Source: a virus
IMG/VR virus record: IMGVR_UViG_3300048573_000059
Coordinates: 1-22,679 of that record
Length of the DNA stretch: 22,679 nucleotides
Direction: 5' to 3' (one strand)
Shown: positions 3,291 to 22,679 of the stretch, one piece after another
Layout of the letters: every line of letters starts with the position of its first letter
Position numbering within the stretch: the stretch's first letter is position 1
Position numbers and translations under genes: made by a program
The notes under the pieces: generated by a model
Databases searched by the model: none
The model's input: only the letters and a program-made list of their open reading frames with translations
Told to the model about the DNA's origin: nothing

Positions 3291-3503
3291 TTACTTTACC
3301 TCCTGTTGTGCTGCCTCTAGGGCTTCTTTGATTTCTGCGTGAATCTCTGCGAGAACACGCTCTGCGTTACGCTGTGCGTCGAAAGCTGCGTTGGTTACCT
3401 TGCTTGCCAACTCGATTTCAATGTGCGCCTGTAGTAGTGCTGGCGCGATTTCCTCTGGTGAACGGTGCACCTTCTTTGGTTCTGACTTATTCTTCTTAGC
3501 CAT
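3291..3503 (-). CDS. Small charged helical protein between Sak4-like ATPase and SSB
   Basis: 70 residues, not recognised. A basic N-terminus (AKKNKSEPKKVHR) is followed by a long predicted helix from about residue 17 to the end, rich in Ala/Glu (IEIELASKV, then AEIHAEIKEALEAAQQ). The helix could form a coiled coil. It starts inside the stop of the ATPase gene (TAATG overlap) with SD GGAGG, so it is probably translated by coupling. Its place between recombinase and SSB suggests an accessory of that pair; this is inference. Confidence 0.75.
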   Translation of the reverse strand: MAKKNKSEPKKVHRSPEEIAPALLQAHIEIELASKVTNAAFDAQRNAERVLAEIHAEIKEALEAAQQEVK

Positions 3504-4237
3504 TACTTGCCTCCTTTGCTGATAATGTCCATGATTGATTTCATAGACGGGTCATAGATTTTCGCCGGCAGTCCGAAGCGGTTCTTCGTAACCAGTCGGT
3601 CTGACTGGCCAACGATTAGCACTCGCTGTGGCGGGCCATCCTCCTGTGCCTCGATGGTCATGTAACCAACGATGTCTGGAATAGATGGCAGGGTTGACTT
3701 GAACGAACCAGGAAGCATCGCAGTGGTCTTGATTGCACCGCTGTTTTCATCCTTGTCGTCAAGTGCGTGTGCAATAAGGATGCTCACGAATGGTGCGGTG
3801 TGGAACGTGCGGAAGATTTCATTCGCCCAGTTCTTTAGGTCGCCCCACTTGCCGAACTTGTTGCCCTTGTTCTCTGGCTTCTCACCGAAGAACTTCTCAG
3901 CACGGTCCATGACAACGCCAATGGTGTCGATGATAACCGTCTTGTACTTGTGGTCGCCACCGATTAGCCAGTCGTACACGGCCTGGAACTGTTCGTGCTT
4001 TTCAATCTGGATTACATCCACGGTCTTGAAGTCACGAGCGATAGCAGATGAACCACCCTCAACGTCAATCAGTAGAACTGGGCCAAACTCTGCAACCTCT
4101 GAGATAGAAGCTGCAAGCCAAGTCTTACCGCGACCTGCGTCACCGTAGAACAGCATTGACTTTGGTTTGTTCAGTGTTTCTGCCTTGTGAATCAGCTTTA
4201 GGAATGCTGGCTCAGGGGCCTTTGTTGCTTCAGTCAT
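3503..4237 (-). CDS. Sak4-like RecA-fold recombination ATPase
   Basis: 244 residues. Walker A is GDAGRGKT at residues 32-39. VLLIDVEGG near 55-62 and TVIIDTIGVV near 99-108 supply the acidic strand of a RecA-type core, and ILIAHALDD follows near 151-159. Size and motif order match the Sak4/AAA_24 phage ATPases, which promote single-strand annealing and recombination-dependent replication together with a phage SSB. It starts the SSB operon at an ATG with a strong SD, AAGGAGG, and an extended -10 promoter just upstream. The nuclease gene sits 82 nt upstream. Together these form an exonuclease/recombinase/SSB set. Confidence 0.82.
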   Translation of the reverse strand: MTEATKAPEPAFLKLIHKAETLNKPKSMLFYGDAGRGKTWLAASISEVAEFGPVLLIDVEGGSSAIARDFKTVDVIQIEKHEQFQAVYDWLIGGDHKYKTVIIDTIGVVMDRAEKFFGEKPENKGNKFGKWGDLKNWANEIFRTFHTAPFVSILIAHALDDKDENSGAIKTTAMLPGSFKSTLPSIPDIVGYMTIEAQEDGPPQRVLIVGQSDRLVTKNRFGLPAKIYDPSMKSIMDIISKGGK

Positions 4238-4265
4238 TTGTTTCCTCCTTGTTTCTGGTTTGTAC

Positions 4266-5006: not shown

Positions 5007-5525
5007 TCACTCAAACTCAAATAAAACACTCTCCTCTCCATCCATTACAACGCCACCCCAGATTCCTGCATTCACATTATCTGCGATGGCATAGTCGTAA
5101 CACGCCTTTATGATAGGGCAACCATAGCATAGTTCTTCGGCTTCGTCAATAGACACTAAGATTGTATGGTCTGCGTATATCTCCGGCTTGTTTAGGCAGG
5201 GTGTTTCGTTCTCACGAAGTCCGGCCTTGAGTGCCTCCCACAATGGAAGCGCAGCTTCAGATATCTGCACGGACTCAGACAACTCAAAGACCTGAATCTT
5301 TTCCTTCTTTGTCCGGGCTACGCCGTTGTTCTGTATCTTCTTTTCCTGATACTTCATCTTGGCGTATTCTTTACGGCACTGTCGGCAGACACGAGCGTTA
5401 TCAAGTGGGCGAATAAAAGTATTCTCCTCGGTGAACTCGTGTCCCTTAGAACAGTGCGTTCCCCTGGCTCTCTTCTTACCCCACGGATTATTCTTATCCG
5501 CTTGTTCCCACTGGTATTCGCTCAT
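5007..5525 (-). CDS. WhiB-family regulator fused to an N-terminal zinc finger
   Basis: 172 residues. The C-terminal half is WhiB-like: Cys110, Cys133, Cys136 and Cys142 (C-x22-C-x2-C-x5-C), with NAGIWGG at 152-158, the family turn that follows the cluster. WhiB proteins hold a 4Fe-4S cluster and bind the housekeeping sigma factor to alter transcription. The N-terminal half carries C25-x3-H29 and C47-x2-C50 in a GHEFTEENT context, a zinc-finger pattern seen in actinophage HNH-type proteins, followed by a basic linker (about 51-77). The start has SD AAGGAG. It is probably the main regulator in this arm; both domains in one chain is unusual. Confidence 0.85.
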   Translation of the reverse strand: MSEYQWEQADKNNPWGKKRARGTHCSKGHEFTEENTFIRPLDNARVCRQCRKEYAKMKYQEKKIQNNGVARTKKEKIQVFELSESVQISEAALPLWEALKAGLRENETPCLNKPEIYADHTILVSIDEAEELCYGCPIIKACYDYAIADNVNAGIWGGVVMDGEESVLFEFE

Positions 5526-6622: not shown

Positions 6623-7966
6623 CTACTCCTTACGTAGGGTTGCGTTCATGTCTAGCTGGCGTTGCAATAGTGTTGATAGCTGGCCCTCATCGTAAGTATC
6701 ACGTGCTACGATATCGTAAATCTTTACAACATTCTTCTGGCCACGTCTACGGATGCGGTCGATAACCTGCTGGTTCATTAGGTTACTGTCGCTGTGTGAT
6801 AGCCAGACGATTGTAGAACATACATCCTGCAATCCATCCACACCTTCTGCAATAGCCGGAATAACTGCCACGATATATTGAAGCTCTCCCCTGAGAAACT
6901 TCTGCTTGGCAGCTTCGCGTTGTGTCTGATTGGCTTGGCCACTCCACTCGAAAGCATCTGCACCAAGACGTGTAGCAACAAGACTAGCATACTTCTGGCT
7001 ATCAGTCAAGAGCAACATAGGTTCATTCGGATTATCCTCAATGATTTCCTGAAGCGCCTTATATTTGCTACTTACCGCATCACCCTCGAAGATAACCTCG
7101 TTAGCCTCGTTGATACTTGGCACAGCAAGGGTAATCTGGCGTAGTCGGATGCGAGCTGCAATCGGAACTTCTGCAATCATCGGATTATCATTTAGCCAAA
7201 CAACCAAGTCTTTCTCAAACTTCTCATAAATCTTGCGCTGTGCTGGCACAAGGTCTACGAATCTGGTTTCTTCTACGACTTCTAGATTGTGGTTAGGCTC
7301 AAGACGGATGTAGCAAGGAAGAGACTTGGCAAACTTACCAGGTTCCAGCTCGCCAAGGATATCCATCTTGCTGAATGGTGAATAGCCGGTAAGGCAATAC
7401 TCATATACCCAAGCCCAGAAACTCTTAGGCACAACGCTAGGCCATAGCCATCGCGTTACTGCCCAGAATCCCTCGAACTTATTTCCGTATGGCGTTCCCG
7501 ACATTGACAACCTGAAGCAGGACTTCAACTTCATAAGCGACTTGAATGACTTGCTGTTACGATTCTGTGCGAAGTGGCACTCATCAACCATAGCGATATC
7601 CGGAACAATCTTATCCCAGACCTGTGTTCTGAAATACTCACGGCCAATGAAATACCATCCAGGCTCACCTGCAATCAACAACTGCATTGCATCCTTGCCA
7701 GACTTGCTACTGTCAATCTTGCGAATAATGCTCTTGTAATCAGTCTGTCGCTGGATGGTATCCCACCAGCCCCAGTAGGTATTTAGTGGACCAATGATTA
7801 GGCTAGTCTTTGCCCCAATGCGAAGCGAAACCTCCACGCCCATCAAAGTTTTGCCAGTTCCCATAAGGCTCGCGTTGAGAGCTGCTTTGGTAGGCTCTGA
7901 GATAATCTTCTCGACTGCCTTCATCTGCCTTGGCTCTAAGGTTAGTGATTCTAACTTGTCTCTCAT
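6623..7966 (-). CDS. SNF2/superfamily 2 DNA helicase
   Basis: 447 residues. Q-motif-like start LEPRQMKAVEKI, Walker A SLMGTGKT (33-40), DECH box (128-131), motif III MSGTPYG (about 154-160), motif V region AIAEGVDGLQ, and motif VI QQVIDRIRRRGQ (about 403-414) with the arginine finger. This is the phage form of SNF2-like ATPases that remodel or unwind DNA in replication and recombination. No strong SD precedes the ATG at 7966; an AAGGAAAGGA stretch lies about 14 nt upstream. Its first 164 nt overlap a possible small membrane-protein ORF in another frame, so translation may depend on that upstream gene. Confidence 0.88.
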   Translation of the reverse strand: MRDKLESLTLEPRQMKAVEKIISEPTKAALNASLMGTGKTLMGVEVSLRIGAKTSLIIGPLNTYWGWWDTIQRQTDYKSIIRKIDSSKSGKDAMQLLIAGEPGWYFIGREYFRTQVWDKIVPDIAMVDECHFAQNRNSKSFKSLMKLKSCFRLSMSGTPYGNKFEGFWAVTRWLWPSVVPKSFWAWVYEYCLTGYSPFSKMDILGELEPGKFAKSLPCYIRLEPNHNLEVVEETRFVDLVPAQRKIYEKFEKDLVVWLNDNPMIAEVPIAARIRLRQITLAVPSINEANEVIFEGDAVSSKYKALQEIIEDNPNEPMLLLTDSQKYASLVATRLGADAFEWSGQANQTQREAAKQKFLRGELQYIVAVIPAIAEGVDGLQDVCSTIVWLSHSDSNLMNQQVIDRIRRRGQKNVVKIYDIVARDTYDEGQLSTLLQRQLDMNATLRKE

Positions 7967-13544: not shown

Positions 13545-13628
13545 ATGACGTTTATAAAACGGGCAGGGTGGATTTTGAACCGTAGTTTTACAGAGCTCAT
13601 CGGACCAGACTCGTTGTTTCGTTTTTGA
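13545..13628 (+). CDS. Possible rightward basic peptide (27 aa)
   Basis: ATG lies about 6 nt after the predicted start of the rightward promoter, with only a weak AGG-type SD. It reads MTFIKRAGWILNRSFTELIG and ends in RF. No homology is evident, and it would be the only rightward gene in this arm. The same stretch could instead be a short non-coding RNA. Confidence 0.25.
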   Translation: MTFIKRAGWILNRSFTELIGPDSLFRF

Positions 13629-21319: not shown

Positions 21320-22429
21320 ATGACTGAAAACATCACTACCCGCCAGATTGAGGCTGCAAAGCTTCTCGAAGGTGCACTTCGCGGCGACCGCATGGACAAG
21401 CTAAAGCTTCAGGAAGGTATCTCTACCTCTGACCTGCCAGTTCAGCTTAACCCAACTCTAAACAAGATTATGCTTGCCAACTACGCAGACCAGCCAAAGG
21501 TCTGGAACAACTTCGCACAGAAGCTTGTTGTAGATGACTTCAAGAACGTTAACTACCAGAACCTCGCTTACGAGGATGACGGCGTTGACAACATGGGTGA
21601 CAAGTTCCGCGAGGGCTCACTACCTACCGTTGGCGAGTACGACGAGTACCCAACCATCGGCTGGTTCTCACTAACTGAGGCTGAGTTCAAGGTCAAGAAG
21701 GCCGGTTCTCGCGTTCGCTTCTCATGGGAGTCAATCGTAAACGACGGCAACATCGGCCTACTTGAGCGTCTACCTCTAGAGCTTGCTCGCAAGGCAGCCG
21801 GCAAGGAAGACGAAGAAGTTACCAAGCAGCTCGTGACCTCTGCAGGTCTAAACACTGCTAACTTCAAGACCGCTAACCAGAACGTTTTGACCGGCAACCC
21901 AGTGTTGTCACTTGAGTCACTTGAGGCAGCAATCACCGCTGCTAACGTTCAGACCTACAACGGCAAGTCAATCACCCCTCTAAGCCGCTTCGTTCTAGTT
22001 ATCCCACAGGCACTAGAACTAACCGCTAAGAAGATTCTTGCTATCCAGCAGGTCCGTCAGGAAATCACCGTTGGCGACACCGTTACCTCAACCGTATCGG
22101 GCAACCCAATCGCTTCGTCAATCCAGATTGTTGTAAACCCTTGGATTAAGAAGATTTACAACAACTCGGCAGCAGACACCATGTGGTTCCTACTTCCAGT
22201 TCCATCTGACACCCTAAACCCAGGTATCGTACTTGGCTTCCTCCGTGGTTACGAGGCTCCTGAGCTTCGCATCAAGGCTGACGCTGGTCTATACCTAGGC
22301 GGCGGTGCAGTTCCTGCTCGTGAGGGTGGCTTTGACTCTGATGACTTTCAGATGCGCATTCGCCACATCGCAACTGGTGGCTTTTTGCTCCCGACGGGCA
22401 CAATTGCATCAACCGGTGCAGGCGCTTAA
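21320..22429 (+). CDS. Major capsid protein (HK97-fold)
   Basis: 369 residues. N-terminal helix rich in charged residues (EAAKLLEGALRGDRMDKLKL), a core with IGWFSLTEAEFKVKKAGSRV, LARKAAGKEDEEVTKQLV and, near 290-345, LLPVPSDTLNPGIVLGFLRG, EAPELRIKADAG and GFDSDDFQMRIRH. The order is typical for actinophage HK97-type capsids. It assembles the icosahedral shell. Its codon use is strongly biased to C-ending codons, as expected for the most abundant late protein. A terminator follows 19 nt after the stop. Confidence 0.88.
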   Translation: MTENITTRQIEAAKLLEGALRGDRMDKLKLQEGISTSDLPVQLNPTLNKIMLANYADQPKVWNNFAQKLVVDDFKNVNYQNLAYEDDGVDNMGDKFREGSLPTVGEYDEYPTIGWFSLTEAEFKVKKAGSRVRFSWESIVNDGNIGLLERLPLELARKAAGKEDEEVTKQLVTSAGLNTANFKTANQNVLTGNPVLSLESLEAAITAANVQTYNGKSITPLSRFVLVIPQALELTAKKILAIQQVRQEITVGDTVTSTVSGNPIASSIQIVVNPWIKKIYNNSAADTMWFLLPVPSDTLNPGIVLGFLRGYEAPELRIKADAGLYLGGGAVPAREGGFDSDDFQMRIRHIATGGFLLPTGTIASTGAGA

Positions 22430-22448
22430 TAGCTCCCACTAAGATTAA

Positions 22449-22480
22449 CCCTCGGCCTTCGGGTCGGGGGTTTTTCTTTT
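22449..22480 (+). terminator. Rho-independent terminator after the major capsid gene
   Basis: A 9-bp GC-rich stem (CCCTCGGCC with GGTCGGGGG, two G-U pairs) closed by a TTCG tetraloop and followed by TTTTTCTTTT. This is a classic intrinsic terminator that ends the capsid transcript. Confidence 0.9.
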
Positions 22481-22492
22481 GTCTGAGTAGTA

Positions 22493-22501
22493 TGGTAAAA
22501 T
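22493..22501 (+). promoter_or_regulatory. Extended -10 promoter of the putative small RNA
   Basis: TGG-TAAAAT, between two terminators. No -35 is evident. The predicted start, about 22508, coincides with the foot of a hairpin. No ORF follows before the second terminator. Confidence 0.45.
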
Positions 22502-22507
22502 ATACCA

Positions 22508-22575
22508 GACGACCTTTCCTCCTTAGCTCGTCAATAACAAAGCCCCCGTAGAGCATTTATCGCTCCGGGGGTTTT
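22508..22575 (+). ncRNA. Putative small RNA with anti-Shine-Dalgarno loop
   Basis: About 68 nt between two terminators. GACGA (22508-22512) pairs with TCGTC (22528-22532), and the 15-nt loop, CCTTTCCTCCTTAGC, contains CCTCCTT, the core of the 16S anti-SD tail. A single-stranded AATAACAAAG follows, then the terminator hairpin. This is the usual build of a trans-acting small RNA that pairs with ribosome-binding sites. The loop can pair over 10 nt with the SD region AAGGAGGAAA of the Sak4-like gene. Confidence 0.5.
22541..22575 (+). terminator. Second rho-independent terminator
   Basis: CCCCCG pairs with CGGGGG, with an inner GAGC/GCTC helix across a TA bulge and a 7-nt loop, followed by TTTT. 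It separates the small RNA from the next gene. Confidence 0.85.
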
Positions 22576-22598
22576 GTGCATTTTCTAAGAAGACAAGG

Positions 22599-22604
22599 TA
22601 GAAT
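22599..22604 (+). promoter_or_regulatory. -10 element of a leaderless gene
   Basis: TAGAAT ends 7 nt before the ATG at 22612, and no SD lies between. As at 15,722, transcription should begin at or next to the start codon. No good -35. Confidence 0.45.
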
Positions 22605-22611
22605 AGTAGAT

Positions 22612-22679
22612 ATGGCCATTTACTTTCCAGACCCAAATCTACCGGTACAGTCACAGGACTGGACTAATAAGGTTGAATC
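22612..22679 (+). CDS. Start of the next head-tail gene, cut by the window end
   Basis: Only the first 22 codons are present, opening MAIYFPDPNLPVQSQDWTNK. In this order a head-tail connector or minor structural gene is expected, but too little is visible to name it. It lacks an SD and probably starts on a leaderless message. Confidence 0.7.
   Translation, partial: MAIYFPDPNLPVQSQDWTNKVE

Follow-up and report, generated by a model that had tools for sequence, protein, structure and literature searches.

A short non-coding RNA gene of about 70 nt lies between the major capsid protein gene and a tail-fibre gene in the window, the whole 22,679-base stretch of viral DNA analysed here, and it is almost certainly a real, conserved RNA gene. 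Its conservation is more extensive than a sequence-only reading of this DNA had seen, extending family-wide among the relatives. The RNA combines a hairpin with an anti-SD loop and a terminator hairpin with a conserved bulge. It is best explained as a phage-encoded riboregulator that acts as a generic anti-SD, a reading to which a probability of about 0.6 is given.

The RNA gene and its setting

The IMG/VR record of the window is linear and probably a fragment. The plus strand carries a late module (terminase, portal, protease, decoration and capsid genes) and the minus strand carries early genes, including those for a Sak4-like protein, a helicase, an exonuclease and a WhiB-domain protein. 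The presence of the last among the early genes (172 aa, window positions 5007-5525, minus strand) indicates an actinobacterial host. No prophage or host was found by a capsid search of host genomes, no match to the RNA region of the window was obtained by DNA search among phage records, and no primase gene was identified in the window. The relevant features are the following:

3291-3503, minus strand: gene for 70 aa, with SD AAGGAGG at 3510-3516; highest calculated pairing strength with the loop
3503-4237, minus strand: Sak4-like gene (phrog_124, 2.8e-47), with SD AAGGAGG at 4244-4250; a candidate target among many
21320-22429, plus strand: major capsid protein gene (phrog_133/4523/1650), 5' of the RNA; leader with AAGGA, without GGAG
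22447-22480, plus strand: intrinsic terminator of the capsid operon, the terminator itself at 22447-22472
22493-22501, plus strand: extended -10 of the RNA, TG-G-TAAAAT (TGGTAAAAT), from sequence; a similar element occurs in relatives
22508-22577, plus strand: the RNA, about 70 nt, its 5' end placed from the -10 spacing and its 3' end from the T run
22508-22532, plus strand: hairpin 1, stem GACGA-(C.C)-CU/AG-UCGUC, from the fold and from covariation in relatives
22518-22524, plus strand: anti-SD CCUCCUU within the 9-nt loop
22537-22577, plus strand: hairpin 2, the terminator, with a conserved 2-nt bulge UA (22549-22550) below G51-C65 and A52-U64
22599-22604, plus strand: -10 TAGAAT, 7 nt 5' of the fibre ATG; predicted leaderless mRNA
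22612-22679, plus strand: collagen-like tail-fibre gene, start only, running off the window; the relatives' proteins match tail fibre PHROGs

The sequence-only reading had proposed a short RNA between two terminators, and this arrangement is borne out. The extended -10, the first hairpin, the short single strand separating it from the terminator hairpin and the terminator itself were all located, and no plus-strand ORF of at least 50 aa lies inside the RNA, as had been claimed. The loop of hairpin 1 had been drawn at 22513-22527; if one internal C.C mismatch in the stem is allowed, it becomes a 9-nt loop, UUCCUCCUU, at 22516-22524, with CUCCU in it. The predicted folding energy of the 70-nt RNA is -31.7 kcal/mol (z = -6.9), and 0 of 200 shuffles were equally stable. 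This stability beyond shuffles is due mainly to the terminator hairpin, and hairpin 1 by itself does not stand out (z = -2.4, 6 of 200 shuffles). Likewise, CCTCCTT alone is no rarity, as the window contains 5 vs 2.9 expected. What lifts the anti-SD loop above chance is the comparison with relatives, in which the stem is rewritten and the loop is kept.

Conservation of the RNA and its anti-SD loop

Relatives were collected by a capsid search of IMG/VR, which returned 80, and a covariance model was seeded with eight of them, the window being excluded. The model matches 64 of 79 capsid-sharing relatives, with one copy each, always on the plus strand and 3' of the capsid gene. For 54 of these matches E is at most 0.01, and the weaker ones are backed by position and aligned features. 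In the other 15 relatives the contig ends before the fibre gene. The window itself gives E = 0.77 in the joint search and is also backed by position and aligned features; when it is searched alone, the RNA is the best match, correctly placed although low-scoring (14.9 bits, E = 0.018). Two relatives of near-identical architecture, L003 and L076, tie the window's RNA to the remaining members. There is one copy per genome in 16 of 16 long contigs and also in Clavibacter phage CN1A. Among 98 unrelated control loci drawn by chance motif, the best E was 0.87, besides two strong matches that are family contigs. An exact loop search of IMG/VR and a gapped motif search were rejected as ways of finding the family, their matches being mostly chance.

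Covariation over the whole RNA was matched by 0 of 500 shuffles on every measure. The stem of hairpin 1 is wholly different across relatives yet paired, with changes on both sides at 6 of 6 pairs. Pairing holds in 97.8% of cells, whereas shuffles reach 46% and slid controls 21-53%, and 46 cells are compensatory vs 12 in shuffles. A loop lost beside a conserved terminator was looked for, since the sequence-only reading had named it as refuting the proposed small RNA. Instead, the core CUCCU is found in the loop of all relatives examined, usually as NNCCUCCUU, while the stem changes; the listing of hairpins demanded CTCC in the loop, whereas the loci had been located by the covariance model without that demand. 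The loop region of some relatives is ACCUCCUUUCU, which we take to be the 3' end of 16S rRNA. A TAnnnT element, mostly preceded by TGN, lies 5' of hairpin 1 in the relatives. Additionally, a GU-rich linker such as UGUGUUGUGUG separates hairpins 1 and 2 in L024, L026, L034, L046, L067 and others, although not in all members.

The invariance of the CUCCU core would also suit a decoy directed at a host ribonuclease with the anti-SD of 16S rRNA as its cleavage site. The single-stranded CUCCU would then occupy a toxin of the MazF or RelE type that infection triggers, and the ribosomes would be spared. MazF-mt3 cleaves CUCCU and UUCCU. Further toxins from actinobacteria are known to cleave the anti-SD or to remove it, including MazF-mt11, which requires C-ACCU (PMC12274833), and RelE1 (PMC12620021). 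However, the C-ACCU required by MazF-mt11 is missing from most loops, no toxin is tied to these phages, and the link to a leaderless gene is left unexplained. The decoy is the main rival explanation, but an unlikely one.

The downstream fibre gene

In the loci examined, the RNA is always directly 5' of the collagen-like tail-fibre gene, and it remains there despite the insertion of glutaredoxin, ribonucleotide reductase or other genes after the capsid gene. Read from sequence, the genes between capsid gene and RNA encode ribonucleotide reductase-like subunits in L035 and glutaredoxin-like proteins in others. A second search, independent of the capsid, used the N-terminus of the fibre gene as query and gave 46 distinct upstream regions. 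The bulged terminator is present in all 46 and the CTCC hairpin in its strict form in 45, the exception being of the window type with the mismatch. All 46 regions also possess a -10-like hexamer 4-9 nt 5' of the fibre ATG, as compared to 84 of 921 genes overall. Under a stricter TANAAT rule, near -10 starts occur in 28 of 338 plus-strand genes vs 2 of 306 minus-strand genes. Because the -10 is only about 4-9 nt before the ATG, the fibre mRNA is predicted to be leaderless.

This association, complete in the loci examined and kept despite the insertions, would be consistent with a role purely in cis, in which no other mRNA is affected and the leaderless promoter of the fibre gene, 20-35 nt further on, is insulated or tuned by the RNA together with its terminator. 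For insulation, however, a terminator suffices, and a separate promoter, a covarying anti-SD hairpin and an invariant bulge would be superfluous. Moreover, the fibre gene has no SD with which the loop could pair. A role confined to the fibre gene is improbable.

The bulged terminator hairpin

Hairpin 2 contains a U-N bulge that begins with U in each of the 46 distinct sequences. Above it, the first pair is G-C and the second A-U in 46 of 46, and the pair below is G-C in 45 of 46; the outer stem varies by covariation. An invariant U-bulge beneath invariant G-C and A-U pairs indicates that hairpin 2 is more than a terminator. The arrangement resembles the bulge by which TAR RNA binds arginine, where U is likewise followed by G-C and A-U, a likeness that is a lead at most. 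The bulge probably serves in protein binding or RNA stabilisation. A kink-turn was ruled out by inspection, as the opposite strand is UCC rather than GA. Some relatives (L006:8625, L018:3803, L063:7338 and L064:7143) have, between capsid gene and RNA, coding sequences for very basic peptides of 28-37 aa, e.g., MAKARKKHKERSKRKEKNEKSHKKSRKR, which are possible candidates for a partner of the bulged hairpin.

The constancy of the bulge while flanking pairs vary could also be that of a structural or protein-binding RNA, used for example in packaging or assembly and encoded among the head genes, with loop and bulge as protein sites and the SD likeness incidental. However, the loop reproduces the anti-SD core exactly and at times runs on to ACCUCCUUUCU, as in 16S rRNA, which is unlikely to be incidental, and we know of no protein for such a function. 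This explanation is quite improbable.

Predicted pairing with early and late leaders

For a generic anti-SD, the question is which leaders the loop can pair with. Start codons were assigned by an SD-aware rule, the same on both strands, and strand was taken as a proxy for timing. In the window, the loop pairs more strongly with early leaders (median -9.8) than with late leaders (median -6.35; p = 0.002), and early leaders also pair more strongly over the contigs of 11 relatives. On the latter contigs, GGAGG is present in 98 of 395 early vs 19 of 418 late leaders (p = 3e-17), counts that pool homologous genes and hence are not independent samples. The capsid and decoration leaders of the family possess AAGGA or AAGGT, without GGAG in the SD, and the protease leaders always contain GGAG. 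The early excess of GGAGG and the capsid and decoration leaders without GGAG make a preferential block of host and early mRNAs plausible; the loop also forms 5 bp with AAGGA. The SD contrast is not diagnostic and was dropped as proof of function, because Curtobacterium phage Yappy, in which no RNA was found, has a similar early GGAGG bias. Lambda has no such bias.

The sequence-only reading had cast the RNA as a silencer of early genes, with the Sak4-like gene and, through a putative 8-nt match, a primase as targets. The general part of this proposal agrees with the better pairing of early leaders, and the 10-nt loop match to the Sak4 leader, AAGGAGGAAA, is exact. The choice of targets does not hold. 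The loop pairs with the leader of the 70-aa gene at -15.2 kcal/mol vs -14.7 kcal/mol for the Sak4 leader, and seven further early leaders pair at -10.9 kcal/mol or better. When own and foreign loops were compared on a genome's own early leaders, the residual was 0.003 (sd 0.196). Loops are thus not tuned to the leaders of their own genome, which favours a generic anti-SD and disfavours a Sak4-specific antisense RNA. Despite its 10 contiguous bp, a specific silencer of Sak4 (and primase) is highly improbable, given that loop flanks vary freely among relatives, that own loops fit early leaders no better than foreign ones and that the 70-aa gene pairs more strongly.

Relationship to known RNAs

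No Rfam family was matched by the window (to E = 5) or by 11 IMG/VR relatives plus CN1A (to E = 1), and a literature search, with coverage mostly of papers outside subscription, found no description of the RNA. The Betaproteobacteria toxic small RNA (RF02278; bdhR1, Bordetella S17) is about 64-67 nt and, like the phage RNA, consists of a CUCCU element and then an intrinsic terminator, a resemblance in kind only. S17/bdhR1-type RNAs repress by RBS pairing at many genes, and overexpression of bdhR1-type RNAs results in growth inhibition (PMC11722255). In contrast to the phage-encoded RNA, the RF02278 RNAs are chromosomal and betaproteobacterial, and S17 is Hfq-dependent. The RF02278 gathering score of 50 bits was not reached in the window or relatives, the best score being 30.4 bits at the Jojan60 RNA locus. 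A weak match in L332 was rejected because it falls on the capsid terminator, off the RNA.

The 6C/B11 sRNA of Actinobacteria binds G-rich 5' UTRs by C-rich hairpin loops (PMC10470900) and, like S17/bdhR1, is a precedent for the proposed pairing at RBSs. While 6C/B11 is chromosomal with two C-rich loops, the phage RNA has one CUCCU loop and a bulged terminator, and the loop of hairpin 2 is not C-rich. The 6C model of Rfam matched neither the window (to E = 5) nor 13 relatives (to E = 1). The ncRNAs of cluster A mycobacteriophages (L5, D29, StarStuff) and Rhodococcus phage WC1, compared by description, differ in that the main one maps to the right end of the genome, within about 500 bp that are transcribed. 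Staphylococcal sRNAs with C-rich loops, of the RNAIII and RsaE type, bind SDs by UCCC-type loops, a mode similar to that proposed here, but they belong to other hosts, are chromosomal and control specific regulons.

The same RNA in CN1A, at 42875-42943 of the record on the minus strand, carries GAG above a UUC bulge, and the capsid of this phage is 38% identical. The start downstream of the RNA has TAGACT 7 nt upstream, and the CN1A record annotates nothing at the RNA site. The annotated start of CN1A_54 (L218:7241-7636, record near 42459-42854, minus strand) appears to be about 100 nt too late; from the ATG 7 nt past TAGACT, the protein is 131 aa and matches phrog_18316 over nearly its full length. 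Two positional look-alikes were found. In Jojan60, whose record lists it as a Stenotrophomonas phage, an anti-SD hairpin occupies the corresponding position; a second anti-SD-like stretch, GUCUCCUCCC, precedes the terminator there (L216 near 7200-7260, record 13554-13603) and scores 30 bits with RF02278, under the gathering score. Arthrobacter phages of the Amigo type carry GUUCCUCCC in a terminator loop before a start with a near -10, and the terminator stem differs compatibly between two phages. In the Streptomyces phages Quantum and Frankenweenie (L269, L276), UUCUUCUCCUUUCC lies just before the terminator after the capsid gene and is possibly an analogue of the RNA.

Proposed function

The RNA probably acts by pairing with SDs. 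Transcribed by a host-type polymerase, it would be abundant and stable and would pair through its loop with the GGAG(G) SDs of host and early phage mRNAs, blocking 30S binding. The capsid and decoration mRNAs, with SD AAGGA and no GGAG, would be hit less, and the fibre mRNA, predicted to be leaderless and to start just 3' of the RNA, would escape. Because the promoters are host sigma-70-like, late timing is judged from position alone, and the idea that the RNA favours late over early phage expression is tentative. The full scheme is more doubtful still. As pieced together from sequence comparisons, it would be a translational switch in which, late in infection, the RNA globally blocks host and early phage mRNAs with strong GGAG(G) SDs, virion genes escape by AAGGA-type SDs or leaderless starts, and the bulged 3' hairpin serves as a protein handle. 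The Arthrobacter phages Amigo and Molivia count against the proposed function, as they have AAGGAG before the decoration gene despite the anti-SD terminator loop.

If this switch exists, a 70-nt RNA would let a phage directly reprogram the start signals accepted by the ribosome, and the leaderless initiation and weak SDs of phage structural genes would gain a purpose. In addition, an unannotated non-coding gene in the cultured phage CN1A would acquire a predicted function, which makes the proposal testable.
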